In this document: positions 6,387 to 45,824 of the stretch, in pieces | Layout: every line of letters begins with the position of its first letter | Numbering within the stretch: the first letter of the stretch is position 1 | From: a virus | Reading direction: 5' to 3' (one strand) | Virus record (IMG/VR): IMGVR_UViG_3300009149_000063 | Location: 1 to 45,824 of that record | Length of the DNA stretch: 45,824 nucleotides | Translations under genes and position numbers: made by a program | The notes under the pieces: generated by a model | The model's database searches: none | The model's input: only the letters and a program-made list of their open reading frames with translations | Told to the model about the DNA's origin: nothing

Positions 6387-6535
6387 TTAGATAAATAGTT
6401 GTATTATTCCAAGAATTTTAATAATAAAAGTGGGATAAAGTGGTAGTAAGTGGGTTTAAAAGTGTTTAGGAATGTTGAATTGACATACACATAAATGTTA
6501 ACATAGACACAAACAAGAAAACTAAAATTAATAAG

Positions 6536-6700
6536 ATGGTACTAATAGACACAATATTTTACATTATAGTTTTATGGGTTAGTATCGTATTACTTAGGGG
6601 TATTAATAGAACAGAAACAACATCAACACTAATGGAGGTGTTGATTTGGTATATGATATTTGGGGTACTAAAGGGGATACTATTTTTATATTTTTTATAA
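6536..6700 (+). CDS. Small two-segment membrane protein
   Basis: 54 aa with two hydrophobic segments (TIFYIIVLWVSIVLL and LIWYMIFGVLKGILFLYF) joined by a short polar loop (RGINRTETTS). An ORF on the other strand covers the same region, but this frame gives a coherent membrane protein and lies directly before a second membrane protein. Could be a holin partner or antiholin; inferred only from context. Confidence 0.5.
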   Translation: MVLIDTIFYIIVLWVSIVLLRGINRTETTSTLMEVLIWYMIFGVLKGILFLYFL

Positions 6701-6778
6701 TTGTTAGAAATGGACACGACATATGTATATGTGTTGATAAGTAGATTAAATAAACTAATAAAAAATTGATATATACAA

Positions 6779-7021
6779 ATGGACGAGTTGACAAAGTGGA
6801 TGTTAGAGCAATTAGGGATGTTTATTGTTATGGGTGTTGTAATATGGTGGTTGAGTAAGCGATTAATAAAGGTTGAGGGAGAGAAGGAGAAGTTATCACA
6901 AGACGTAATTAAGTTAACTACCTTATGGGAGACGAAGGCGAATAAGATAGGAGAAGAGGGTAAAGAAACTCTGAAAGAAATACTAAATTTACTTAATGAG
7001 ATAAAGGGGTTATTAAAATAA
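6779..7021 (+). CDS. Holin-like protein (BhlA/UviB-like layout)
   Basis: 80 aa: short N-terminus, one transmembrane helix (MFIVMGVVIWWLS, about residues 14-26), then a charged coiled coil to the end. This layout matches BhlA/UviB-type holins and XhlA-like proteins, which form pores in the inner membrane. ATTAAATA (6745-6752) lies 26 bases upstream. Codon use (ATA, TTA, AGT, GGG, few C) matches the next two genes and differs from the rest of the window. The function is inferred from architecture only. Confidence 0.5.
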   Translation: MDELTKWMLEQLGMFIVMGVVIWWLSKRLIKVEGEKEKLSQDVIKLTTLWETKANKIGEEGKETLKEILNLLNEIKGLLK

Positions 7022-7087
7022 TTTTTTATAGGTATAAAGACTTAGTAATTTTCATTAGATTAAATAAAATAAAAAATAAAGTGATAG

Positions 7088-7618
7088 ATGGGTGGGATAA
7101 ATGTATTTGATATATTATTCACGAATAAGAAGAGTTCGAAATATCAGGAGGCTTTAGATTCAATAAGTAGAATAAGTTCTATAGTTAATAATGTAACTAT
7201 GGAATATCCGGATGTTAGTAGTAAAGAGATAAAGACGGTACAGAATCATTGGTTGGAGTTAACACATCCTATAGGAAAGGGTGTTCATGTTATGGGTTTA
7301 CATAGTGGAGATGATTATAAGAGTTTGTTATTACATTATCAGAGGGATAGTTATATATCGTCACATTTTCATAGTAAGGAGTGGGAAGTAGTAATGGTAT
7401 TAGACGGTAAATGTATAGACGAGTCAACGGGTACTGTATTAACAAAGGGGGATGTGTATATAATACCGAGGAATGCTGTTCATAATATAAAGACGGGTAG
7501 TAATGAGTGTTATATGTATGTTATGTACAGTAGTAACAAAAAGCATTTAAAGATTAGTGAGGATGAGCAAGAGATAGCGAAGCGATTAATAGGTAAGCGT
7601 CATAGTTTTAAGGCATAA
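7088..7618 (+). CDS. Cupin-domain protein
   Basis: 176 aa. A helical N-terminus of about 60 residues is followed by a cupin barrel: ISSHFHSKEWEVVMVLDG (cupin motif 1, with the His-x-His and Glu of a metal site) and TKGDVYIIPRNAVHNIKTG (motif 2 with its His). Single-domain cupins bind a metal or small ligand; the substrate is unknown. ATTAAATA at 7059-7066 precedes it. It sits between the holin-like and patatin genes and shares their unusual codon use, so the three probably arrived together. Confidence 0.75.
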   Translation: MGGINVFDILFTNKKSSKYQEALDSISRISSIVNNVTMEYPDVSSKEIKTVQNHWLELTHPIGKGVHVMGLHSGDDYKSLLLHYQRDSYISSHFHSKEWEVVMVLDGKCIDESTGTVLTKGDVYIIPRNAVHNIKTGSNECYMYVMYSSNKKHLKISEDEQEIAKRLIGKRHSFKA

Positions 7619-9020: not shown

Positions 9021-9332
9021 ATGATAACAAGTAAAACAAGAACAACGAAACACACATCATATTTTTATATTGTGACTAATGAAATTAACGATTTGATTTA
9101 TTATGGGTCAGGTTGTAAGAAAGGTTATAAAGGTTCTGGTGCAGAACTGATGAGGGATATGGATTTGTTTGGTGCAGAACTATTCCACTTAAAAGAATTG
9201 TTGTGGTTTGAAACAAGACAAGAAGCATACGATTTTGAAGATAGATTTTTGAAGTTGTATAAGATTTCAAAAAGACCAAATACATATAATGACAAAGATG
9301 CAGCACAAGGATTTGGAGTTGGTAATCAATAG
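9021..9332 (+). CDS. GIY-YIG homing endonuclease, N-terminal part
   Basis: 103 aa. YFYIVTNEINDLIYYGSG contains the GIY-YIG strands (YIV and YYG), and RQEAYDFEDRFLKLYKISK fits the helix with the catalytic Glu. ATTAAATA (9009-9016) lies five bases before the ATG. TAG at 9330-9332 interrupts the frame, which then continues uninterrupted into the next ORF; the two were probably one protein of about 270 aa. The fragment keeps the nuclease core but lacks its DNA-binding part. Confidence 0.8.
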   Translation: MITSKTRTTKHTSYFYIVTNEINDLIYYGSGCKKGYKGSGAELMRDMDLFGAELFHLKELLWFETRQEAYDFEDRFLKLYKISKRPNTYNDKDAAQGFGVGNQ

Positions 9333-23644: not shown

Positions 23645-25089
23645 TGAAAAATTATAGAAAATTCTTATTTGAAAATAATAAAAATACATACATCGAATTA
23701 GTTCAATGGTTATCTACCAAGAACATTAGCGATAAAGTAAATTCTGATGATGATTCTTCGAGGTATTATGTAGAAAAAGAAACCACAAGTACAAAAACTA
23801 TAATCATATATGGTGAAACCCCAACAGATAGAGTTCTTCTAAAAAATGAACTATTAGATTTTTTAGAAAAAAATGAATTATCATTTACACACAATACCAA
23901 AATCGGAGGTACACATGGTAGAACTGAAATCAGCGAAGATACTAGTGGTATTGGGAAAAAACTACACATTCAATATAAATATTCTAGTAATAGTATAGAT
24001 ATACAAGAATTGTTAGTAGGTGCGCTAGTTTTAATAGGTGAATCACATAATGGTACATTGACATTAGTAGAATGTGACAACATTTTAAAAAAATGTAAAG
24101 GTACAATTACTAAAATCAAAGGAATAAAAGACCCCGAAAAGTTTTCTGAATTGACAAAGGGTAATTATTTAGATTTAGCACCTAGTATTTCATCTTGTAA
24201 TTCTATTTTAGAAATAATTAAAGCCGATGGTCAAATTATAAAAGATGCATATTGGACCGGTCAATCTTGGCATAAAGACATTAGATTCTTAAATCCACCA
24301 ATTGGTAATATTAAAGATTATAATTCATCTGATATCATATTTAAAACAAATGGTATTAATGGTGATGTTTTTTATGGTTTTTCCCTAAAAAAGAAAGGTA
24401 AACGAACAGATGCCGACCCGACGTTAATAAACAAAACAATTACGGGTAAAAGAAGTTTCTTGAAAGGTATAATTCCAGATAGTGAAATTAAAAAAATAGA
24501 AGATTCTAAAATAGAATTTTTCAAATTAGTATTGAAAGGTGAATTTAAAAATCTCAACCAATCTGTTATAAACAAAATGAAAGAAAATGAAATTAAAGAT
24601 TACATAAAGCAACTAAATAATGAAGATGTTGCTAAATATTTGAAATCTTCTGATAGTATATTTTTCAAAACTATTGGTGAAACACTACCTAAATATGCAA
24701 CTGATTTTATCAAAGGGTTTTTAGAGCTCATATTCAGGACTAAATTATCAAACACACTAGAAAGTACAGATTTTAAATTTAATTTGAACACAGGGATCGG
24801 TAGGGTTAATAAGAACTATGTTACAACAGAACCCGCAGAGAATAAAGATTTAGCAACAACTATAGAAGTATTAACAGATGTTTTCAATAGTAAATTAACT
24901 ATTGAAAAAACAAAAGGTAAACTACAAGCTTGGGATAAAGGTACAAAAGCAGCAAAAATATTTTATACTATATATTCGAATGCATTACCAATTCTAGACA
25001 TAGAAATAAGATATAAAGGTTCATTCACGGCAGAACCACAATTTCAAGCAACTGCAACACCTAATTTTAAAAACTTATTTAAAAATTAG
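23644..25089 (+). CDS. Large tagged protein, possible nuclease
   Basis: 481 aa, one-base overlap with the previous stop. N-terminus MKNYRKFLFEN is a tag variant (L-F-E). Around residues 228-262, SDIIFKTNG is followed by VFYGFSLKKKGKRTDADPTL, which resembles the D...(E/S)-x-K core of PD-(D/E)xK nucleases, where D and K bind metal; upstream ELLVGALVLIGE could hold the first acidic residue. This is suggestive only. It is the largest tagged protein. Its 3' end meets the large terminase gene tail to tail with a four-base overlap. Confidence 0.55.
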   Translation: MKNYRKFLFENNKNTYIELVQWLSTKNISDKVNSDDDSSRYYVEKETTSTKTIIIYGETPTDRVLLKNELLDFLEKNELSFTHNTKIGGTHGRTEISEDTSGIGKKLHIQYKYSSNSIDIQELLVGALVLIGESHNGTLTLVECDNILKKCKGTITKIKGIKDPEKFSELTKGNYLDLAPSISSCNSILEIIKADGQIIKDAYWTGQSWHKDIRFLNPPIGNIKDYNSSDIIFKTNGINGDVFYGFSLKKKGKRTDADPTLINKTITGKRSFLKGIIPDSEIKKIEDSKIEFFKLVLKGEFKNLNQSVINKMKENEIKDYIKQLNNEDVAKYLKSSDSIFFKTIGETLPKYATDFIKGFLELIFRTKLSNTLESTDFKFNLNTGIGRVNKNYVTTEPAENKDLATTIEVLTDVFNSKLTIEKTKGKLQAWDKGTKAAKIFYTIYSNALPILDIEIRYKGSFTAEPQFQATATPNFKNLFKN

Positions 25090-26963
25090 AACCAAATATC
25101 ACTTGCATCAAAATTAGTATCATTCGTACCTAAGTTGTTGAAATCGTCTATTAAGAAATCAGTACTTTCGTCTAAACTAACACCATTTTCCATTAATGTA
25201 TTGATATGTTGTTTGTTTTCATCATCTAACATTTCGAATGCCTCTGCCACTAAATCAATAAATATAACATCTCTAAATATTTCTACAAGATTAACACATG
25301 CCATAACAGTATCATCATGTCCAGTACTTGCTTCGTAAGATCCAGATTTATTCCTATTAAAATGATTAAATTCTTCACATGTCCACTTGTCAAATATAAC
25401 AATTGTCCTATTATCTATTAAATTCTTCACCTCTGCACAATTTCTCGGTTTAGTTTCTTTATCTTGTCTTAAACCAATTTTTTTCTTTATTGCACCTTTT
25501 CTATGATATGTTTTCAAATATACAGAATCATCATAAAGTGAACCCCCATATAAATGTTTCATCTTTTCATCGAAAAAAGATCCATATGTATTCCATTCTA
25601 AAACTATTCTAACTTTGTCTATATCAATAAATTTATTACTAAAAACGAAATTATATACTAGTTTAGCAAAATCTTCTATACCTACTAAATTATCTCTAAA
25701 TATTCCTATTTGCTCCAAATAAAAATGTTTCTCCAATTGAAAAACTTCGTTTTCTAAAACTGTTATATCCCTTTCTATCTTAGGACTAACTTTGAAAATC
25801 TGCATAACCGTATAATCCCTACCAACACCCTCTGCCAAATCTATACTAAAAAATAGTGTATCCCTTTTTAAATTTTCTATATCATACGATTTTTTAAATA
25901 ATAAATTTTCATAATTCAAATTAAAATTATCTAAATATTCAAATTCGTGATGAACAAAATCGGTAATGTTAGATTTTAAATAATTCAATTGTTTTGCCGA
26001 CAACAACAATAAATCACTTCTTTGAAACGCACAGGCAAATTGTTCATTAAATGCATCTGATCCCATAATAGCAATCTGTTGATCTGCCCAAGATTCATCT
26101 CTCCCCGGAACATCCCACCAAGGTATCATCATATGACTAAACCCATTCCTACCTTCTACTGCTTGTTGATATAATTCCTGAAACAATTCATATCCATTGG
26201 GTGTACTTGTCATTATTAACTTAGAATTTGGATCAGCCGCCATTACTGGATAAATATTGTCCCAAAAACTACGTTGTATGTTTTGTCTTACGTGAGCAAA
26301 CTCATCCAAAAACAACAAGTGTATGGTAAATCCAATCGCAGCCTTATCTGTAGTTGTAGTCGCCAATATCCTAGAATTAGCATCTGTCATCAAACTAAAC
26401 ATGTTCCAAGAAAATAAACCGGGTTTTAACCAAAAAGGTAGATGGGAAATGATAGACTTGACCTTTTCTAAAATCTCTTTACTTGTATCCCCTTTATTTG
26501 AGGCTATCATAATATTTTTATCTGGGTGAAAAATCAAAAACCAAGTTAAAAAGATTCCAGCAACCACAGTATTGTGACTTAGAATATCATTTGTATAATA
26601 TCTATGTTCAAGAGTATCAATAGTTAGATCAAACATACCAACAGAAACGGGGTATGATGTAATAGAAACTACCCTAGAGGCACCTTGCTTAGTATATAAA
26701 TAATCATCACAAGTTAAATCTTTAACATATTTTTCTTTTAATTCGTGTGTGAACACTATGTGATTATCTGCACATTCTAAAAATAATCCATTTTCTAATA
26801 AAAGTGTATAAACTTTATATGGTTGTGTTGTGTGTAATTTTGTTGCCTTGACCCAACCATTGTCAGATTCAACTTCTATATCAATATCAAAACTGTTTAT
26901 TAATTTCTTATCAACATCATTTTCATCTAAATCTATATTTCTATATTGATACTTTTCTATCAT
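25086..26963 (-). CDS. Large terminase, C-terminal part with C-intein
   Basis: 625 aa from ATG 26963 (MIEKYQYRNIDL); the frame extends 15 codons further to 27008. Residues 1-131 are the C-terminal part of an intein: a Hint sheet with LECADNHIVF (block B-like Asn-His), FDLTIDTLEHRYYTND (block F) and LSHN (block G, ending in Asn131). Thr132 then starts the C-extein TVVAGIFLTWFL, completing Walker A after GSRQIGK. The extein has Walker B LLFLDEFAHV, motif III TSTPNG, and RNase H-like nuclease acidic residues in FFSIDLAEG, VLEWNTYG and GHDDTV. Spliced to the product of 28881-29444 it would give about 632 aa, normal for a T4-like terminase. Confidence 0.92.
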   Translation of the reverse strand: MIEKYQYRNIDLDENDVDKKLINSFDIDIEVESDNGWVKATKLHTTQPYKVYTLLLENGLFLECADNHIVFTHELKEKYVKDLTCDDYLYTKQGASRVVSITSYPVSVGMFDLTIDTLEHRYYTNDILSHNTVVAGIFLTWFLIFHPDKNIMIASNKGDTSKEILEKVKSIISHLPFWLKPGLFSWNMFSLMTDANSRILATTTTDKAAIGFTIHLLFLDEFAHVRQNIQRSFWDNIYPVMAADPNSKLIMTSTPNGYELFQELYQQAVEGRNGFSHMMIPWWDVPGRDESWADQQIAIMGSDAFNEQFACAFQRSDLLLLSAKQLNYLKSNITDFVHHEFEYLDNFNLNYENLLFKKSYDIENLKRDTLFFSIDLAEGVGRDYTVMQIFKVSPKIERDITVLENEVFQLEKHFYLEQIGIFRDNLVGIEDFAKLVYNFVFSNKFIDIDKVRIVLEWNTYGSFFDEKMKHLYGGSLYDDSVYLKTYHRKGAIKKKIGLRQDKETKPRNCAEVKNLIDNRTIVIFDKWTCEEFNHFNRNKSGSYEASTGHDDTVMACVNLVEIFRDVIFIDLVAEAFEMLDDENKQHINTLMENGVSLDESTDFLIDDFNNLGTNDTNFDASDIWF

Positions 26964-26992
26964 TTGTATCAAAAATAGAATAAGTAATTTTA
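26932..26992. repeat. 61-bp direct repeat, copy in the C-intein gene
   Basis: Matches 27418-27478 at 60 of 61 positions. It spans the start codon and first codons of the terminase C-half (MIEKYQYRNI) and its upstream bases. Confidence 0.9.
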
Positions 26993-27377
26993 TGTTGTTT
27001 TTTAGCATTTAAATATATATTTTAACTATAAATTACCACTCGAAAAATAATTAGAAACTAACTATTTTTTCAAATTTGTAGTTTAATGTATAGTATTTAA
27101 ACAATCTAAATGTGATTATTTTCTAAAAACACATTAACATTTTCATTAGTCACTTCCTTAAATTCAGTTTTTCTAGCGTATAATTTTTTCGATTTTCTTA
27201 TTTATAATTATTATAAATATCACATTTGTTGAAAAATAATTAAAATAAATAAAATATTTTTTTTGTACGTGCATGTAATAATTGTATTAGTTCTCCGGGG
27301 GAAATATATATACTCTTAGTACTCTTAGGGAATTTGTTTTTAGTAGAAAGAATAAAGACTATTAGCCAAGATAATAG

Positions 27378-27403
27378 AAAAGGTTCTTTGTCCTTTGATA
27401 TAT
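27378..27403. repeat. 26-bp direct repeat with the N-intein end
   Basis: Identical to 28934-28959, which encodes the IKGQRTF region near the end of the terminase N-half; here the reading frame is different. Confidence 0.85.
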
Positions 27404-27417
27404 TATTTTCATATAAT

Positions 27418-27478
27418 TCTATATTTCTATATTGATACTTTTCTGTCATTTGTATCAAAAATAGAATAAGTAATTTTA
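27418..27478. repeat. 61-bp direct repeat, scar copy
   Basis: Partner of 26932-26992 with one mismatch (G for A at about 27445). It encodes MTEKYQYRNIE on the minus strand before diverging. Confidence 0.9.
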
Positions 27479-27638
27479 GGTTTTCCTCTTGTCATATTTA
27501 ACGATGAAAGTAAAAGTACAAAAACTGGGATTTAGAGCTTTTACCTGAAATATATGAATAGTTATTTAGAACCATTATGAATTATATTTTATTTGTCGAG
27601 AATCTACTATTATGTTACACTTTTTGATTCAATAGTAT

Positions 27639-28862
27639 ATGAATGAACTCAAAGAAGAAATAAAATCAGCAAATAGTTTAATAGGTAACAAAAAACTTAA
27701 CACTAAAATCAAAGAAGCGACTGCGGATTTAGATTGTAAAAGCATTAAAGAAAGAACATTTTGTGTTTTAAATGATGTTACAAAAATACCTAAATGTTCT
27801 TGTTGCTCAAAACAAGTAAGATTCGACAAATTAAAAAACGAATATAATAGATTTTGCTCATTGTCTTGTTATAGTATGTGGAGAAAAGAAAATAAACTGT
27901 TTAGAACTAATACTACAAACGAAAAACTACTTAAAGATAAAGATAACTATGTTCAATGTAAAGTCTGTGGAAGCGCTGTAAAATCAATAGCATCCCACGT
28001 AAAACTAAGTGGTGATGATATTCACAAAAACTGGGATTTAGAACGATATAAAAAAGAATTTCCAAATGAACCTATTATAGCAAAGAATACAAGTAAAATT
28101 CTGTCTGAAAAAAGTAAAGGTGAAAACAATGCTATGCATAGTAGTAAAACTACTAAAGAATTTAGACAATCAATATCACCATTTTCTATTGAATTTTACA
28201 AACGCAAATTTTCAAACGAATCTTTAGAACAACAAGAAAAAAGATTAAAAGAATTCATAAGTACTGTTGATTATGATAGTAGATTAACAGAAAGCCAATT
28301 AGATTATTGGATTGAAAAATGTAATGGTGATGTAGAACAAGCAAAAGAACTATACAAAGAAAGACAATCAACTTTTACAAAAGAAAAATGTATCAAGAAA
28401 TACGGTGAAGAAAAAGGCTTAGAAGTTTATAATGATAGACAAGAAAAGTGGAGTATAATAATGGAAGAAAAATACCAAAATGGTGAATATCATAGAAGTA
28501 ATGGTAGTAATATTAGTTCATTAAATTATGAAATAGTAGAATATTTACCAAAAACTAAATATTGTTTAGAAAATGAATGGTTCATACACACAGGTAAACG
28601 AATATATTATTATGATTATAAATTAGGAAACAAAATTATTGAATTTAATGGTGATTATTGGCATTGTAACCCAGAAATATATGAGAGTACTTTTTACAAT
28701 AAATCAAAACAAATGTATGCACAAGAAATATGGAATTTTGAAGTTATTAAATTACAAGCAGCAAAAGATAATGGTTTTGAGGTTTTAACGATTTGGGAAT
28801 CAGATTTTAAGAAACACAAAAAAGAAACCTTACAACGATGTGTGGATTTCCTAAAAGAATAA
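27639..28862 (+). CDS. Vsr-like homing endonuclease inside terminase
   Basis: 407 aa on the strand opposite the terminase. N-terminal zinc-finger-like clusters (CSCCSKQ...FCSLSC and CKVCG...SHVKLS), a NUMOD-type segment (KGENNAMHSSKTT), a K-x-Y-G-E-x-x-G-L-E-V-Y repeat, and a C-terminal very-short-patch-repair-like nuclease: YYYDYKLGNKIIEFNGDYWH with CNP, then EVLTIWESDF. This is the domain type of endonucleases found between halves of split-intein genes in metagenomic phage sequences. It probably cuts intein-free terminase alleles so that the whole fractured locus is copied in. Ends in a bidirectional terminator. Confidence 0.85.
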   Translation: MNELKEEIKSANSLIGNKKLNTKIKEATADLDCKSIKERTFCVLNDVTKIPKCSCCSKQVRFDKLKNEYNRFCSLSCYSMWRKENKLFRTNTTNEKLLKDKDNYVQCKVCGSAVKSIASHVKLSGDDIHKNWDLERYKKEFPNEPIIAKNTSKILSEKSKGENNAMHSSKTTKEFRQSISPFSIEFYKRKFSNESLEQQEKRLKEFISTVDYDSRLTESQLDYWIEKCNGDVEQAKELYKERQSTFTKEKCIKKYGEEKGLEVYNDRQEKWSIIMEEKYQNGEYHRSNGSNISSLNYEIVEYLPKTKYCLENEWFIHTGKRIYYYDYKLGNKIIEFNGDYWHCNPEIYESTFYNKSKQMYAQEIWNFEVIKLQAAKDNGFEVLTIWESDFKKHKKETLQRCVDFLKE

Positions 28863-28886
28863 AATAGGACAAAAATTGTCCTATTT
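28862..28886. terminator. Bidirectional terminator between convergent genes
   Basis: AAATAGGACAA (28862-28872) pairs perfectly with TTGTCCTATTT (28876-28886) around AAA. It serves both the endonuclease (plus) and the terminase N-half (minus), overlapping the stop of the latter. Confidence 0.85.
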
Positions 28887-29444
28887 ATCTAATTTACTAT
28901 ATGACCAATATAACCCGTATTTCAAATAATCTAAAAAGGTTCTTTGTCCTTTGATATATCTGAACCACAATTTATAAATAGGAATAGTACCAATACCTTT
29001 GACATTTACGTAAGTGCTTGATAATGAGCACTTTCCAATTTGTCTGCTGCCCACTAAAACATTATTTTTTTTTGTCTGATAGTTCAATAGCATTTGTTCT
29101 TGATAAGGATACAATTCTATATGACCTATACCTTTTGGTGTCATCAGTTGAACATATTTATTAGCAAAGTGTAATATGTCTTTTTTACATTTCTTAAACT
29201 CTACTAGTTCTTCTGGTGTCATTTGAAAAGCAACTCTACCTTTTCTAAGTTGTGGGTTTTTGTCAAAAAAGGGATTTTTTGCTTTGTTTAGGTCTAGACC
29301 ATAATTGTCAAATTTGTCTATTAGTTTATCTACTAGTTCAGTTGTCCATATTTCAGAATCGAATTCTGGCTCTTCTATGCTACTAAATTCTTCACCGAAT
29401 GATGGTATGAATTCTTTTTGTAGGAATCTTTGTTGTTTTGCCAT
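28881..29444 (-). CDS. Large terminase, N-terminal part with N-intein
   Basis: 187 aa. Residues 1-138 are the terminase N-terminus: the adenine-binding region IELYPYQEQML and Walker A NVLVGSRQIGK, which stops at the Lys. Cys139 starts the N-intein (CSLSSTYVNVKGIGTIPIYK...), a block-A-like stretch with no block B, and only 49 residues remain to the stop. The first 25 or so residues match the layout of the short N-inteins of atypically split terminase inteins (AceL-TerL type). The protein cannot hydrolyse ATP until trans-splicing with the 25086-26963 product restores GSRQIGKT. A terminator overlaps its stop, so read-through into the C-half is unlikely. Confidence 0.92.
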   Translation of the reverse strand: MAKQQRFLQKEFIPSFGEEFSSIEEPEFDSEIWTTELVDKLIDKFDNYGLDLNKAKNPFFDKNPQLRKGRVAFQMTPEELVEFKKCKKDILHFANKYVQLMTPKGIGHIELYPYQEQMLLNYQTKKNNVLVGSRQIGKCSLSSTYVNVKGIGTIPIYKLWFRYIKGQRTFLDYLKYGLYWSYSKLDK

Positions 29445-30959: not shown

Positions 30960-31208
30960 ATGATTAGTAAAGAAGACGAAAAAAAGGTATTAGAATTTTC
31001 TAAATTATATAGAAAACGAGCAGACAAAGTTAATGGGTATAAAGATCAATTACAAGAATTACAAGAAAGGATTACTAAGGAATTAGAAGACATGAAAGAA
31101 ATGAGGGAAAGTGAATTATCATTTTTAGATGAGTTAAGAAACAAGTATGATTCGACACCGGAAGAGATAATTCAATTAATACAAAAAATAATTACAATAA
31201 ATGAATAA
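30960..31208 (+). CDS. Small coiled-coil protein
   Basis: 82 aa, almost entirely a charged coiled coil (KDQLQELQERITKELEDMKE). Lies between the nuclease and NrdA genes with an eight-base overlap into NrdA. Role unknown. Confidence 0.6.
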   Translation: MISKEDEKKVLEFSKLYRKRADKVNGYKDQLQELQERITKELEDMKEMRESELSFLDELRNKYDSTPEEIIQLIQKIITINE

Positions 31209-33462
31209 AATTAATATTATCAAGCGTAATGGTACACTAGAAGAATTGAATATTGAAAAAATTAATAAAGTTTTAATATGGGCAACTAAAGATGTTTCTG
31301 ATGTTAGTGCATCAGAAATAGCTATGAATGCTAATTTGCAATTTTATGATGGTATATCAAGTTCAGATATTCAACAAGTTCTTATTAGTTCTTGTGTAGA
31401 TTTAATAAGTGAAGATTCTCCAAATTATGACTTAGTTGCTGGTAAACTTTATAATATGTATTTGAGAAAAAAAGTTTTCAATACATTTAATTATTTACCT
31501 ACACTTTATCATCACATACAGTCTATGGTAAAAAAAGGTTGGTATACTAAAGAATTATTAGAAAAATACACAAAAGAAGAAATTGATGATATTGGTAATA
31601 AAATTTTAAACCATAAAAAAGATTGGGACTATACATATGCATCTATTCGGCAAATGAGCGACAAATATCTAATAAAAAATAGAAAAAGTGGTGAAATTTT
31701 TGAAACCCCACAATTTATGTATATTGCTATTGCTATGTGTGTATGTGCAGGAATAGAAGATGATAAAAAAAGATTTCAAGATATCAAATCAAAATATAAC
31801 GATTATTCAGATTTTTATATATCTTTATCAACACCAGTTGTTTCTGGTATTAGAACAAATACAACACAATATAGTTCTTGTACACTTATAGAATGTGGAG
31901 ATTCTATTAATTCTATCAATGCAACATCTAATGCAATTGTTAGTTACACCGCAAAAAGAGCAGGTATTGGTATGAATGTGGGACGAATAAGAGCAGAAGG
32001 TGATTTAATTAGAAATGGTGAAGTTGTTCATACTGGTTTAGTTCCCTTTCTAAAGACTTTTGAAACAAATACTAAGGCAGTTCATCAAAATGGATTAAGA
32101 GATGGTGGCGGCACTGCACACGTACCTATATGGCATAAACAAATCGAGGATGTAATAGTTTTAAAAAACAACAAAGGTTCTGATGAAAAAAGGGTTAGAA
32201 AACTGGATTATAGTATACAGTTTTCTAAAATATTTTGGAAAAGATTCTTAGATAATGGTATGATTACATTATTTTCCCCAAATGATGTACCTGATTTATA
32301 TGACAATTTTGGATTAGAAGCCTTTGATAAACTTTATGAAAAATACGAAGCAGATTCTACTATATCTAAAGAATTTGTAAGTGCTAGGGAATTGATTAGT
32401 GATATTATACAGGAACGTTTTGAAACCGGTAGAATTTATATTATGAATATAGATAATGCTAATTCTCATAGTACTTTCGATACAGAAAATGGAAATAGAA
32501 TTTCTATGAGTAATTTATGCCAGGAGGTTTTACTCCCAGTGAGCCCCTTGAATCACGAGGACGATGGTAAAATGATTTTAAGGTATGTCCTCATAGAAAG
32601 TGATAAAGTTGAGCAATTTAGAGAATGGTACAAATCAAACGATATTTATATCACAGGAGATAGTTTTGGATCTTTAACTGAATTATTACATCCTTGTACC
32701 GGTAGGACAGATTTTGTAATTAGCACTAGTCAACATGCACCTAATGGTTTTGATGCGATCCCAGTAAAAGTTGAAGTAGTTTATGGTGACAAACCGGCTG
32801 AGATTGCATTGTGTACACTAGCAGCAGTTAATCTTGGTAAGGTAAGAGACTATAGGGAATTAGAAAGAATTACAAAGAATATTGTTGACACTTTAGAGTG
32901 GGTAATAGATAAACAAGAATATCCTATGTTTGCTGCGTTAAAAATGTTAAAACGTAGGAGTTTAGGTATAGGAGTTACTAATTTTGCGTATTGGATGGCA
33001 AAAAGAGGTTTCAATTACGAAGACCCATCAGCATTAGAAGAAATAGATCGTTTATTTGAACACTTTACATATTATTGTTTAAAAGCATCAAATGGGGTTG
33101 CAAAAGAAAAAGGTGCTTGTGAATGGTTTCATAGAACAAGAATGTCAAAAGGTGAATTGATTATTGATAATTATAATAAGAATGTTGATAAATTAGTTAA
33201 AAGAAAATTAGATTTAGATTGGGATGTTTTAAGAAAGGATATTAAACAATATGGTATGAGAAATTCTACCCTTATGTGTTTTATGCCAGTAGAAAGTTGT
33301 AATTTTTTTAAGACTAAAATAGAAGTTGATAATCCTATTTTTAGTATTGAATTAGAGGATGGTACAATCAAAGAGTTTTATTATAATGATGAAGTGTATC
33401 TTAATAATGGTGACTATAAATTAGTACAAGAAATAGTAGAAGGTGATGATATTATTATTTAG
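31201..33462 (+). CDS. nrdA: NrdA (class I RNR alpha), N-part with N-intein
   Basis: 753 aa. Residues 1-90 are an ATP-cone (IIKRNGTLEELNIEKIN). Catalytic residues: Cys227 in YSSCTL, Asn438-x-Cys440-x-Glu442 in NLCQE, and Cys538 in EIALCTL. Cys440 and Cys538 are 98 residues apart, against 23 in E. coli NrdA (Cys439, Cys462), so about 75 extra residues are inserted beside the active site. The N-extein ends MPVES; then a 54-residue N-intein starts with Cys700 (CNFFKTKIEV...) and has a Hint-like FSIELEDG...EGDDI segment. The rest of NrdA is at 34853. The enzyme reduces NDPs to dNDPs with NrdB (39668). Confidence 0.93.
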   Translation: MNKINIIKRNGTLEELNIEKINKVLIWATKDVSDVSASEIAMNANLQFYDGISSSDIQQVLISSCVDLISEDSPNYDLVAGKLYNMYLRKKVFNTFNYLPTLYHHIQSMVKKGWYTKELLEKYTKEEIDDIGNKILNHKKDWDYTYASIRQMSDKYLIKNRKSGEIFETPQFMYIAIAMCVCAGIEDDKKRFQDIKSKYNDYSDFYISLSTPVVSGIRTNTTQYSSCTLIECGDSINSINATSNAIVSYTAKRAGIGMNVGRIRAEGDLIRNGEVVHTGLVPFLKTFETNTKAVHQNGLRDGGGTAHVPIWHKQIEDVIVLKNNKGSDEKRVRKLDYSIQFSKIFWKRFLDNGMITLFSPNDVPDLYDNFGLEAFDKLYEKYEADSTISKEFVSARELISDIIQERFETGRIYIMNIDNANSHSTFDTENGNRISMSNLCQEVLLPVSPLNHEDDGKMILRYVLIESDKVEQFREWYKSNDIYITGDSFGSLTELLHPCTGRTDFVISTSQHAPNGFDAIPVKVEVVYGDKPAEIALCTLAAVNLGKVRDYRELERITKNIVDTLEWVIDKQEYPMFAALKMLKRRSLGIGVTNFAYWMAKRGFNYEDPSALEEIDRLFEHFTYYCLKASNGVAKEKGACEWFHRTRMSKGELIIDNYNKNVDKLVKRKLDLDWDVLRKDIKQYGMRNSTLMCFMPVESCNFFKTKIEVDNPIFSIELEDGTIKEFYYNDEVYLNNGDYKLVQEIVEGDDIII

Positions 33463-33542
33463 AATAATAAAATGAGTTCTACTGACATAAAAGAAAATAA
33501 TTTGATAACTTTATTGAGTAAATATACAAAACAATAATACTT

Positions 33543-34856
33543 ATGGAAATAAAGTTATCAAATTATTTACAAGAATATAAGAACAAACCAAATTGTGTTA
33601 TATCTTTTGTAAGAAACCTGAGTTTTTTTAATAAATTAGATTTTCTAACAGATCAGCAGTGGAAAGATATATGTGATTATTATATCAACTATACTGAAAA
33701 GTCTGTTGGTAAGTCTAATAAAATTATTTCAGTTAAAGGTGGGACAGCAATTAGAAGAATTATTACAGCATATTACAATTCTACTAGGTGGGTTTATATA
33801 TCAAAATATAATATGGTTATGTTTGTCAATTGGCGTATGCAAAATACCAAAGTACCTAATGCATCAATTGAGTTTATTTCAGCACTATTTAATGGTAAAT
33901 CTGAACATATTGAAAAATATCAATTAGATAAGAAGTCTAATCGAAAATCACAATATGACCCAGAATATGTATCTAAACGAGATGGTATTTCTTTAGAAGA
34001 AGCTAAAAATCAAATAGAAAAGTTCAAATCAGACAAGGCAACAACTAAAGAAAATTTCATTAAAAAACACGGTAAGAAAAGGGGGGAAGAAATGTGGGAA
34101 AGACACAAAACAGTTTCAAGACACTCTGAATCCATTTATATTGAAAAGTATGGTGAGGTTGAAGGTAAAAAGAAATGGCAAGAATATTTAGTTGCATTTA
34201 AAAAAGAAAATAGGCGGTGTATTGTATATTATACAAGTCGTGGTTATAGTAAAGACGATGCAATAGAAGAAGTTTCTAAATATCAAAAAGAAAATTCTGG
34301 TACACATCCTGATTATTATAGGAATCTTGGATATAGTGAAGATGAAATAAAAGAAATATTATCAAAAATTAATTCAAAGAAAGATGCGGCATCGTTAAAG
34401 TTTTATATTAATAAATTTGGTGAAAAGTTAGGAAAAGAAAAATATTACGATAATTGTGATAGATTATTTGAAATAGGGTCGAAAGGACTAGGAACAGGTG
34501 GTGTTTCTAAAATATCATTAGACTTATTTGAGAATTTAGGGGTTGATTACAACAGAGAGCTACCACTAAAAGACAAAACTAAAAACCGGAGTTATTTTTA
34601 TGACTTCAATATTGACAATAAAATAATTGAATTTAATGGTGATTACTGGCATTGTAACCCAATTAAATATAGTGCAGAGGATTTAGTAAAATATCCAGGG
34701 GGGTCTTTTCTAGCAAAAGACAAGTGGAAACAAGATAGACAAAAAATAGAATTTGCCAAATCACAAGGATATGATGTTTTAGTAGTTTGGGAATATGATT
34801 ATAAAAACAATAAAGAAGCAACTATTAATAAAATAAAAAAATTTTTAGAAACATGA
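33543..34856 (+). CDS. Vsr-like homing endonuclease inside NrdA
   Basis: 437 aa, same strand as nrdA. Contains three K-x-G/H-G-x-x-x-G repeats (KKHGKKRGEEMWER, EKYGEVEGKKKWQEY, NKFGEKLGKEKYYDN), probably DNA-recognition modules, and a C-terminal nuclease: IIEFNGDYWHCNP, then YDVLVVWEYDYK. The catalytic segment is nearly identical to that of the terminase endonuclease, so the two are homologous. Its stop overlaps the start of the NrdA C-part (ATGA), so both are co-translated. A 21-codon ORF at 33472 between it and NrdA-N is probably spurious. Confidence 0.87.
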   Translation: MEIKLSNYLQEYKNKPNCVISFVRNLSFFNKLDFLTDQQWKDICDYYINYTEKSVGKSNKIISVKGGTAIRRIITAYYNSTRWVYISKYNMVMFVNWRMQNTKVPNASIEFISALFNGKSEHIEKYQLDKKSNRKSQYDPEYVSKRDGISLEEAKNQIEKFKSDKATTKENFIKKHGKKRGEEMWERHKTVSRHSESIYIEKYGEVEGKKKWQEYLVAFKKENRRCIVYYTSRGYSKDDAIEEVSKYQKENSGTHPDYYRNLGYSEDEIKEILSKINSKKDAASLKFYINKFGEKLGKEKYYDNCDRLFEIGSKGLGTGGVSKISLDLFENLGVDYNRELPLKDKTKNRSYFYDFNIDNKIIEFNGDYWHCNPIKYSAEDLVKYPGGSFLAKDKWKQDRQKIEFAKSQGYDVLVVWEYDYKNNKEATINKIKKFLET

Positions 34857-35743
34857 AAGTTATCAATATAACAAAACGAGAAAACACTTCTATTAAATCA
34901 ATAGAGGATATTAATTTAGAACAAGGTTTAGATATGGAAATCTTACACAAAGAAAATAAACAACAATGGATTAACTTTGAAAAACCATTTTACGTACCTA
35001 CACTAGAAGGTAACAAAAAAGTTGATAAAATTTGGTTTAATGGTATTACTAAAATTAACGAAATAGTATTTGATGATGGTAATAGTTATAAAATGACCAA
35101 TAATCATAAACTTTTACTTTCTAATGGTGAGTGGGTCGAATCCAAAAAACTAAGAGTGGGTGACAAGATTCAAGATAAATCTCAAAATAAAACACATACT
35201 ATTACTGAAATAAAATGGCAATCTGAAGAAGTACCTACTTACGATATGGAAGTTTCAGATGTTCATCATTATTTCTTCGACAATGGGGTTGTTTCCCATA
35301 ATTCATCCGTTATTAGTAATAGTACAAATGGTTTAGAACCACCTAGAACACCTATACAAGTTAAGACTAGTAAAGCTGGTGCAATTAAAATGGTTATACC
35401 GGGATATTCTAGATATAAAAACAAATATACATACGCATTTGATATGAGTAGTAACGAAGGTATTATTAATATACACAGTGTTATTCAAAAGTGGACAGAT
35501 CAAGCTATTTCTTGTAATCACTATTATGACCCTAAGAAATTTGAAGATGGTAGAGTACCAATGGATATAGTAGCCAAAGATTTATTACAATTTTATTCAT
35601 ATGGCGGTAAACAATTATACTATGCCAATACATTTGATGGGAAAACCGAAGATCACACGGATAAAATGAATGAAAAACTAGAAGACTTACCAACAGAAGA
35701 CAACCCTTTGGAAAGTGGATGTGGAGATGCGTGTGTTTTATAA
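34853..35743 (+). CDS. nrdA: NrdA C-part with C-intein
   Basis: 296 aa. Residues 1-150 are the C-intein: a long N-terminal extension, the Hint segment IVFDDGNSYKMTNNHKLLLS (block B-like Asn-x-His), block F VPTYDMEVSDVHHYFF and block G GVVSHN with terminal Asn150. Ser151 begins the C-extein SSVISNSTNGLEPPR, which joins N-extein MPVES to recreate the conserved loop of RNR (E. coli MPSETSSQISNATNG). The radical-transfer pair YY in LYYANTFDG and a C-terminal Cys pair (CGDAC) are present. Spliced NrdA would be about 845 aa. Followed by a terminator. Confidence 0.92.
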   Translation: MKVINITKRENTSIKSIEDINLEQGLDMEILHKENKQQWINFEKPFYVPTLEGNKKVDKIWFNGITKINEIVFDDGNSYKMTNNHKLLLSNGEWVESKKLRVGDKIQDKSQNKTHTITEIKWQSEEVPTYDMEVSDVHHYFFDNGVVSHNSSVISNSTNGLEPPRTPIQVKTSKAGAIKMVIPGYSRYKNKYTYAFDMSSNEGIINIHSVIQKWTDQAISCNHYYDPKKFEDGRVPMDIVAKDLLQFYSYGGKQLYYANTFDGKTEDHTDKMNEKLEDLPTEDNPLESGCGDACVL

Positions 35744-38197: not shown

Positions 38198-38215
38198 ATT
38201 ACATTAAATATCTTG

Positions 38216-38527
38216 ATGAAAAGAAGTGTGTATATAATAAAGAACGTAGAAAATGAACACATAAAGATTGGTATAGGTTTTAATGCTTCCAAACGTCTCA
38301 AACAACTTCAAACTGGTTCATCTTCAAAACTAGAATTGGTTTACGAAAGAGAAGTTGAATATGCATCAAGAGTAGAAAAAGCATTACATTCAATTTATTC
38401 AATTTTTAGGGTACATGGTGAATGGTTTCAAATACCGGACTTAAATGTTAAAGAATTTGATTCACGAATAACTTTATATGAAAACAATTTCATTATACTG
38501 AATGAAAATGAAAACCCATTCATCTAG
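38216..38527 (+). CDS. T5orf172-like GIY-YIG domain protein
   Basis: 103 aa from ATG 38216, five bases after ATTAAATA. VYIIKNVENEHIKIGIGFNA, then KRLKQLQTGSSSKLELVYE matches the T5orf172 version of the GIY-YIG nuclease fold (Y-I-I and K-I-G). The Glu in ASRVEKALHSIY sits where the catalytic Glu is expected. Such small proteins act as DNA-binding or nuclease accessory factors in phages. Tail-to-tail overlap of eight bases with the next, minus-strand gene. Confidence 0.75.
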   Translation: MKRSVYIIKNVENEHIKIGIGFNASKRLKQLQTGSSSKLELVYEREVEYASRVEKALHSIYSIFRVHGEWFQIPDLNVKEFDSRITLYENNFIILNENENPFI

Positions 38528-43572: not shown

Positions 43573-45824
43573 ATGTCTGGAATAAATTACAGAGAAAATA
43601 AAAACCATCCACTAAGTCATAATGAATTAGATAATAATTTCAGATACAAAGAAGAGTGGACACCTAATTATCCTTATAAACAAGGTATGGTCGTTCTATA
43701 TGAAGGTGCAGACGGTCTATATTTTTATAAAGCTAAAAATGATGTACAATCACCAACTTTTAACCCATTACAATGGACTAAAATAGGACCAGGTGGATCA
43801 GGTGTTCCTGGTGCAACAGGACCACAAGGTATCAAAGGTGCAACCGGTTCAATAGGCATCAAAGGAGCTACTGGATCACAAGGAATAAAAGGAGATGTTG
43901 GTGCAACTGGTGTTAAAGGTGCTACGGGTCCACAGGGTATCAAAGGAGATTCAGGTTCTGTTGGTCCTAGTTCTACTATACCGGGACCAACAGGTGTGAC
44001 AGGTGCAAAAGGAGCCACAGGTGCAACAGGTGCTATGGGTGCAACATCTACCATTGCTGGTCCAACCGGTTCAACAGGACCAACAGGACCAACTGGTCCA
44101 ACAGGGATTGGTGGTGCTGGATTAAAAGGAACCAGCACATCAGCATTTTCATTAAAAAATGTTGGTAACATTTCATTCATACTAAGACCCAATTTTATAG
44201 AAGATGGTTACGCAACCGCATTTGTTGAAAATTCGTATATACACGTCGCAAAGGCAATAGATGCAACTAAATATCAAATTTCAGAAATAGTATCATATAA
44301 TGATGTTTCTGGAAGTATTACTATAAAACCACCTATATACGAATCACCTAATTCTGACACTATTGCCGATAATGATTGGATAGTAACTGGTAGTTCGGTT
44401 CCAGGTGCAACTGGACAAAAAGGTGCAACTGGACAAAAAGGTGCAACTGGACAAAAAGGTGCAACTGGTGAAAGTGGTGCAACAGGACCAAGTGGTGGAC
44501 CTGTAGGACCAACAGGACCAACGGGTCCAACCGGAGCCGAAGGTTTACCGGGAAATAATGGTGCAACAGGACCAACAGGACCAACAGGACCACAAGGAAA
44601 TAAAGGTGCAACGGGACCACAAGGAATCCAAGGGGTAACAGGAGCAACGGGTGCAACAGGTGCAAAAGGAGCAACTGGTTTTGGCGTAACTGGACCAACT
44701 GGTTTTGGTACCACGGGTGCAACAGGACCACAAGGAGTAAAGGGCGCAACGGGCGCAAAAGGAGCAACTGGATTTGGGGTAACTGGACCACAAGGAGTAA
44801 CGGGTGCAACAGGACCACAAGGAATACAAGGTGTAACAGGACCACAAGGTGCAACTGGTTCAAGTGTTACGTTATCAGGTACAAATGATTTTATCCCCGT
44901 ATTTAATGCAGCAGGTGATAATATAGAAGACTTCTTTATATCAGCCTCTCAGTCTCTTTCTTGGGGCACGGTTACTACTACTGGGACTAGGAAGATTCTC
45001 CTCACCCCAGACGAGACTGGAACTACATCTAACAGGGTCCAGATAGGACTAAGTGATTCTACTGTTCCAAATTTCCTAGAGGTACAGCTACTACCTAGTA
45101 ACGCTTTTGGTGGTATGAGCTTGGGTAATCTTAACAATCACCATTTACTGATGAGTGAGAATGGTAACGGATCATTTAATATAAAGAGAGGTTCATTTGT
45201 TATTCTAACCACTACCCAATCTGGTAACTTCACAGACGGACTAACCATTGATACTAGGAGTTTTACCTTAAAAGATACAGATGTCTTGGGTGGAGATGCT
45301 GTTTTTTCTGCTGGATCAAATCAGTTCCAGAATACATATAAACCGTTCCTAGTCAACCCAAATGATAATTCTGTTCCCTTCATGGTTAGGGCTCCAAGAA
45401 CTACAGCAGGATCTGGAACACAGTATTACTCAATAACAAATTTCAACCAATCCGGTGCAAACAATCTTGGGGTAATAATAAGTCATACAAATTTAGATTC
45501 TATTGCAAACGCTGGAACCAGACCAGCAACAGCCCACCTAATAATAAACAACAGCTCTGTATTCTCTACCGAGGGATTCACTAAAGATTACTCTACAGAT
45601 GCCTCTAGTATATTTAATGCCCCCCATTTGTGGCTTAGGGATAAGATACAGAGATCTACTTTAATAAGAGATGGGCATGTGGCACACACCTCTGATAACA
45701 ATATATCTGCCAGAGTAGATGGTGTTACTTATGATCTTATAAACGCAATTGGCACTAAGCCACTATCCACCTTAGCTAAGAGCCCGACTGCAACAGAAGA
45801 TGGATATATCTACTCTTACGATGA
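43573..45824 (+). CDS. Collagen-like tail fibre, truncated by window end
   Basis: At least 750 codons, open to the right edge. N-terminal region (about 1-75) includes a carbohydrate-binding-module-like segment [20 protein letters not shown] with Trp, likely the particle-attachment end. Two blocks of G-x-y repeats rich in GATGPQG/GPTGPTG (about 76-185 and 275-435) flank a non-collagen domain (about 186-274). From about 44935 (residue 455) the C-terminal receptor-binding part uses clearly different codons (CTC, GAG, CAG, AGG, ACC). Such Gly-x-y stalks are typical of trimeric phage fibres. Long reverse-strand ORFs here are mirror images of the repeats. Confidence 0.85.

Follow-up and report, generated by a model that had tools for sequence, protein, structure and literature searches.

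Fractured genes, a kind of locus set out by Dassa et al. in 2009, reportedly consist of a gene for a conserved phage enzyme that a split intein interrupts, with a free-standing gene for a Vsr-related endonuclease lying between the halves. We analyzed IMG/VR record IMGVR_UViG_3300009149_000063, a stretch of 45,824 bases that carries T4-like genes and is called the window here. Its large terminase gene, terL, is interrupted within the Walker A motif, with a homing endonuclease gene (HEG) in the gap. The arrangement belongs to the fractured-gene kind, as the initial annotation had proposed: a split intein divides an enzyme gene, and a free-standing endonuclease gene lies between the parts. Our best explanation, which we hold to be very probably correct, is that TerL is trans-spliced from two proteins and that the split was created when a HEG inserted into a hairpin turn of the intein.

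A terminase gene divided within Walker A

On the minus strand, the open reading frame (ORF) of TerL-N (29444-28881, 187 aa) runs to ...GSRQIGK and continues with C139 and 48 further residues, and that of TerL-C (27008-25086, 640 aa) opens with intein sequence ending ...ILSHN, followed by T147 (TVVAG...). When C139-K187 of the first and M1-N146 of the second are removed, residues 1-138 and 147-640 join into a 632-aa protein that can be aligned over its full length with the uninterrupted 637-aa TerL of relative L003 (79% identity), and GSRQIGKTVVAG is restored. This site is empty, with no interruption, in four relatives (L003, L004, L005, and L007); because they read through, the element can be placed exactly between the Lys and Thr of Walker A (GSRQIGK / T). 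Pfam terminase and intein models, PHROGs, and PDB gp17 agree on the window terL, and a second IMG/VR record (L006) has the identical arrangement. The initial annotation had read the same N gene ending in GSRQIGK and Cys139, the same C-intein ending in SHN before Thr, and an expected total of about 632 extein residues, and the ORFs agree with it on each count; its call of a split intein in the TerL Walker A is upheld by the empty-site homologues, by intein matches in profile and fold searches, and by the purifying selection acting on each half. Thus, the large terminase of this phage is very likely encoded by two genes whose products would be joined by a split intein.

Table 1 Features of the divided terL and nrdA loci in the window
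Feature	Position	Strand	Evidence or remark
TerL C-extein from T147, remaining ATPase + nuclease domain	25086..26570	-	Pfam Terminase_6N 1.6e-8, Terminase_6C 2e-3; PDB gp17 E 4e-34
C-intein, 146 aa, helix (MLKNNIKLLILFLIQMIEKYQY) at start, blocks B, F, and G, SHN at end	26571..27008	-	ORF, Pfam, motif alignment
Remnant (31 codons) of another endonuclease gene, sense-oriented, 55% identical to L002 HEG1	27109..27201	-	tblastn E 2.8e-4
26 nt duplicated exactly from the N-intein coding DNA (28934-28959); meets the C-intein copy at the shared word ATATATCAAAG	27378..27403	-	
C-intein start, incomplete duplicate, 94% to 26916-26996	27402..27482	-	
HEG2, Vsr-like homing endonuclease, 407 aa, inverted relative to terL	27639..28862	+	Profile search, fold match
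11-bp hairpin, terminator-like, short T-tract, between the tail-to-tail TerL-N and HEG2 gene ends	28862..28886		z -5.6
N-intein, 49 aa (CSLSSTYVNVKG...KLDK), predicted helix at end; stop codon 28881-28883	28884..29030	-	Homologous N-inteins in many loci
TerL N-extein, 138 aa, to Walker A ...GSRQIGK	29031..29444	-	PHROG terminase large subunit E 2e-20; aligns with uninterrupted L003 TerL
NrdA N-half, ...MPVES then 54-aa N-intein (33298-33459)	31201..33462	+	
Paralogous Vsr-like endonuclease between the nrdA halves, sense	33543..34856	+	34% identity to HEG2
NrdA C-half: 150-aa C-intein ending SHN (34853-35302), then SSVISNSTNG...	34853..35743	+	

The residues of a class 1 intein are present in the window: C139; H83, D127, and H135 of the C half; SHN; and T147. 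In 18 diverse relatives, the block B His (C-half H83), the block F Asp (D127), and the +1 Thr never vary, and the block F His almost never does; the intein mostly ends in SHN, with SSQ or NLN/SLN in some, including huge phages. Block B belongs to the C half, which places the split between blocks A and B, an atypical site. The C-intein matches gp41-1 (PDB, 4e-5), CatC (3e-4), and, weakly, VidaL. It comprises 146 aa from the first Met, not residues 1-131 as first annotated, a length obtained only from the internal Met16. Profile searches of both halves against intein models, which had been suggested as a check, succeeded for the C half, with a Pfam Intein_splicing match below the curated cut-off of that model.

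For both intein halves, the ratio of nonsynonymous to synonymous substitutions (dN/dS, omega) is 0.11-0.40 among the window, L002, and L058, which indicates that both are under purifying selection. A terminase that is simply broken, in a dying or misassembled gene whose halves are remnants while another terminase packages the DNA, is very improbable on this evidence. The region does hold relics and a duplication, and the 45.8-kb record is probably a fragment, so a second terminase could lie outside it, but both reading frames are open and show purifying selection, the residues at the intein junctions are retained, as is Walker A, and the layout is matched in the second record, with split inteins at this exact site in dozens of other phages. 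Decay was ruled out by the open halves, the selection, and the recurrence in other phages, and an assembly error was ruled out by the second record and the dozens of homologues. Joining at the RNA level by a trans-splicing intron has precedents, since terL of other phages is interrupted by group I introns (PMC12363816) and that of ICP1 undergoes splicing as RNA (PMC10448857). In the window, however, the frames run on beyond the exteins into a Hint domain that has C1, the block B and F residues, and SHN then Thr; contiguous relatives encode this Hint domain in frame; and the inverted HEG makes a single transcript unlikely. On these three grounds we rejected RNA joining, which we regard as exceedingly improbable.

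The intein family and its predicted hairpin

A first profile scan of viral contigs gave 30 loci, and a second gave 408 stretches encoding intein relatives, of which the best 80 were kept; with the earlier hits and four more in metagenome-assembled genomes, de-replication left 74 rows, 71 with an intein and 3 without. Hidden Markov models were used for TerL-N, the C-intein, and two HEG types (HEG1 and HEG2). The intein is contiguous, in a single ORF with no HEG, in L024, L027, L061, L108, and L137. Split inteins occur with a sense HEG2-type gene (27 rows), with a sense HEG1-type gene (L002 and L058), with an antisense HEG1-type gene (L087 and L128), and without an intact HEG (14 rows). In L106 and L120, too, the HEG1-type gene is antisense, and the locus yielded no N half. 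Tandem HEGs occur in L125, L133, and, at a contig edge, L079; L073 was dismissed as a tandem case, its single ORF being matched by both profiles. The two halves can lie far apart with other genes between them (∼12.4 kb in LR756501, 12.3 kb in G002, and 11.2 kb in G001, whose contig carries only the end of the N half).

Some family members show further peculiarities. Inteins of huge phages and their relatives, namely LR756501 (L008, L013), G001 (L034), and G002 (L043), end in NLN or SLN, not SHN. Another huge phage, LR756502 (L010), has an uninterrupted TerL and is nested among intein-carrying relatives on the tree; it either lost the element or was never invaded. Truncated paralogues of the TerL ATPase domain adjoin split terL genes in L009 (5937-6749) and L041 (about 6400-7090; L050); their Walker A Lys is replaced (SRQMGIS and SRQTGYS), and they are too short to hold the nuclease domain.

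The AlphaFold2 model of the contiguous relative L027 (predicted local distance difference test score [pLDDT], 95; predicted template modeling score [pTM], 0.88), computed from an alignment of contiguous, N-only, and C-only rows, shows a Hint-like fold in which an additional helical hairpin (helices 32-46 and 50-64) lies between early strands. A Foldseek search with this model returned 65 PDB matches at E ≤ 0.001; the 50 listed are inteins and bacterial intein-like (BIL) domains, and the VidaL intein is the best among the matches listed. The break in the split relatives L022 and L023 falls at residue 46/47, i.e., in the hairpin turn; because the HEG enters there, each half keeps one helix.

These observations suggest how the terminase may be assembled. 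Judging from the contiguous-relative model, each TerL half would carry part of the Hint-fold intein and one hairpin helix; the two helices would pair, and the Hint fold would then form. Chemistry at C139, T147, and N146 would excise the intein and make the Lys-Thr bond of Walker A, before which the ATPase would be inoperative.

Endonuclease genes, their traces, and a proposed origin of the split

HEG2, which occupies the window gap, had been annotated as a Vsr-like endonuclease on the strand opposite terL, and both parts of that description hold: its ORF is on the plus strand and the terL halves are on the minus strand, and the top fold match of its C-terminal domain is the catalytic domain of I-Bth0305I (3r3p; probability, 1.00; template modeling score by target, 0.66), with Vsr (1vsr; probability, 0.97) near the top. 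The Foldseek E-values are weak (0.08 and 0.2, respectively), and a sequence profile of HEG2 independently matches the same two proteins (E 0.02 and 0.5). HEG2 is a candidate DNA-cleaving enzyme. Among the family loci, no intact inverted HEG of this type was found outside the window and its twin record, the latter also being the sole match in a scan with HEG2 alone. Of the strong bidirectional terminator annotated between HEG2 and TerL-N, the hairpin stands and is stable, and its role as a terminator is conjectural, the T-tract being short. The terL halves may be made from separate transcripts. Around TerL-C, we counted 24 sigma-70-like sites against 19 expected; as this is not clearly above chance, we claim no promoter there.

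The remainder of the window gap contains relics (27100-27482), which the initial annotation had missed, as it had the second fractured gene and the atypical position of the split. A repeat of the C-intein start abuts a copy of N-intein DNA, forming a scar of duplication or misrepair, and beside the C half lies the remnant of a sense HEG1 (alignment score, 50; shuffled maximum, 40). L002, a sister phage, has the identical split-intein site with an intact HEG1 in sense orientation, and its gap retains 23 antisense codons of HEG2 (87%; E 7e-9; score, 107; shuffled maximum, 37). The simplest reading of these reciprocal traces is that a common ancestor carried inverted HEG2 by the N half and HEG1 by the C half and that each lineage lost one; tandem HEGs in matching order are present in L125 and L133. 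The window would then represent a late state, with inverted HEG2 beside the N half, the sense HEG1 relic beside the C half, and the duplication scar between them.

Intermediate states can be read directly in close relatives. L022 and L023 are 94-98% identical to L024 over long stretches, with flanks that agree at ∼96%; L024 has one contiguous TerL ORF, and the other two have a HEG in the hairpin turn, where the N-half stop overlaps the HEG start (CTATGAGT). For ∼60 nt to the left and ∼80 nt to the right of the HEG, the L023 sequence is unlike L024 and matches L027, after which the agreement with L024 resumes abruptly; these flanking tracts look like a co-conversion signature, as expected from homing. 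The reverse step is visible in L084, which lacks the HEG that is present in its relative L086 (DNA identity, 84-89%). The 38-nt gap of L084 still encodes TIEKCIKFISG, the end of the L086 HEG, so that its N half now ends in HEG-derived residues, and comparison of the pair reveals a deletion joint. Clear HEG tails persist in the HEG-less splits L081, L084, L094, L095, L099, L112, and L135; the relic search was not significant in L109, L111, and L129, where other ORFs occupy the gap. On the extein tree, switches fall between close sisters, with at least 6 changes among the free, contiguous, and split states and 11 changes of HEG presence among split rows.

Together, these findings suggest that splits arise when a selfish endonuclease gene enters an intact intein and persist after that gene is lost. 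Free-standing Vsr-like HEGs would insert into the hairpin turn of an intact intein gene, and the insertion would supply the stop codon of the N half and the start signals of the C half. The endonuclease would presumably cut the HEG-less intein allele, whereupon the HEG would be copied in with flanking DNA. Later, the HEG could be replaced, joined by a second HEG, or deleted except for its last codons, or the halves could drift apart; in each case, the intein would remain split. With moderate confidence, we propose that a full cycle is represented at this one terL site (intein-free, contiguous, HEG-split, HEG replaced or doubled, deleted with the tail left, halves separated), that atypical split inteins are near-irreversible HEG scars, and that the helices double as a ready clamp for immediate splicing.

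The direction of change among these states is our deduction and is not given by the tree. If it were mostly reversed, the split would still be a scar, with old split inteins re-fused into contiguous ones by recombination. Split alleles are far commoner than contiguous ones, which are scattered on the tree, as this scenario would have it; against it, no HEG relic was seen in contiguous alleles, where the hairpin turn is kept, most HEG-less splits have relics, and the L023 tract accompanies the HEG, as homing predicts. We consider such a reversal unlikely. Alternatively, the split might be kept because it is useful, holding the terminase inactive until both halves are abundant and thereby timing packaging. 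Because the break lies inside Walker A, an unspliced motor should be dead, which favors this idea, as does the persistence of the halves in the absence of a HEG and, in three huge-phage records, 11-12 kb apart. Related phages (L003, L005, and L010) nonetheless do without the split, and a benefit-free ratchet explains its persistence equally well, so that we find a packaging timer rather improbable.

Several points weigh against trans-splicing from HEG-made halves as we describe it. The short TerL-N half matched no intein model in Pfam or NCBIfam, and for this reason its membership in the intein rests on the empty site and contiguous homologues. Block B of the window C half reads ADNH, not TxxH, the Thr being replaced by Ala. 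The predicted fold is that of the contiguous relative L027, not of the halves in the window, and the alignment behind that model put many N-only rows on the second helix. The window HEG1 relic is short (31 codons), and the relic search was not significant in L041, L105, L138, and L139. The extein tree counts changes and does not tell contiguous ancestral alleles from those restored by recombination; it also has several long branches, which makes deep placements unsure. Finally, the case for splicing and cleavage is built throughout on sequence and a model.

Comparison with described systems

A second gene of the window, nrdA (31201-35743), is broken after MPVES by a split intein of 54 + 150 aa. 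The joined NrdA aligns with the uninterrupted NrdA of L003 (687/845 residues identical). nrdA is a known fractured-gene target (PMC3653736). In the phage of L002, nrdA (L141) is split without a HEG by a 60-nt gap reading TINKCKKFLGI, which by eye, unscored, resembles the tail of the window HEG, TINKIKKFLET. A scan with the nrdA C-intein alone returned nothing; the whole NrdA C-half worked as a query. The 54-aa NrdA N-intein has a stretch that looks block-B-like after its first residues (IELEDGTIKEF...GDDI), and a full block B (TNNH) is also present in the NrdA C half. Elsewhere in the window, two small ORFs (9021-9332 and 38213-38527) have, by eye, a GIY-YIG/T5orf172-type look and are possibly more homing endonucleases; an open-ended ORF (43573-45822) with long collagen-like G-x-T repeats probably encodes a tail or fiber protein.

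An origin of natural split inteins has been proposed before but is difficult to observe in sequence data. Here, pairs of nearly identical phages that have or lack the endonuclease provide the before and after states, so the step becomes testable in the laboratory. New split inteins with a short N part are numerous in the family, have contiguous counterparts, and are useful for protein ligation. In addition, protein splicing would govern an essential step that is easily scored, the completion of Walker A in the packaging motor. In the literature searched, which excluded Dassa 2009, we found no description of the Walker A site, of two-HEG alternation with inversion, of contiguous counterparts, or of deletion scars.

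The window terL resembles the fractured genes that Dassa 2009 reportedly describes: a split intein interrupts the gene of a phage enzyme, and a Vsr-related endonuclease gene occupies the gap. It differs from them in its terL Walker A site and inverted endonuclease; in two HEGs that alternate in the gap, with reciprocal relics in the window and L002; and in the contiguous counterparts, co-conversion tract, and deletion scars at this site. The AceL-TerL, GOS-TerL, and Cat inteins (PMC11766414; PDB 6dsl) share the terminase host, a short N-terminal part (IntN), and block B in a large C-terminal part (IntC); like AceL-TerL and GOS-TerL, the window intein is split between blocks A and B, and its C part resembles CatC (E 3e-4). 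The AceL/Cat type is flanked by Glu-2 and Glu+2 (PMC11766414), whereas the window intein has G-2/T+1/V+2, so that the TerL insertion site differs, judged by the flanks alone. Its IntN is also longer (49 aa), and the helical hairpin at the split point of the window family is not covered by the CatC match. VidaL and gp41-1 (PDB 6vgv and 6qaz) are the nearest in solved fold and sequence; they are smaller (145 and 128 aa) and, by length, have no room for the hairpin that the HEG interrupts. Likewise, I-Bth0305I (PDB 3r3p) and Vsr (1vsr) share the fold of the HEG2 C-terminal nuclease domain, and HEG2 differs from both in its 407-aa length, with long extra N-terminal regions, and in its location in an intein gap.

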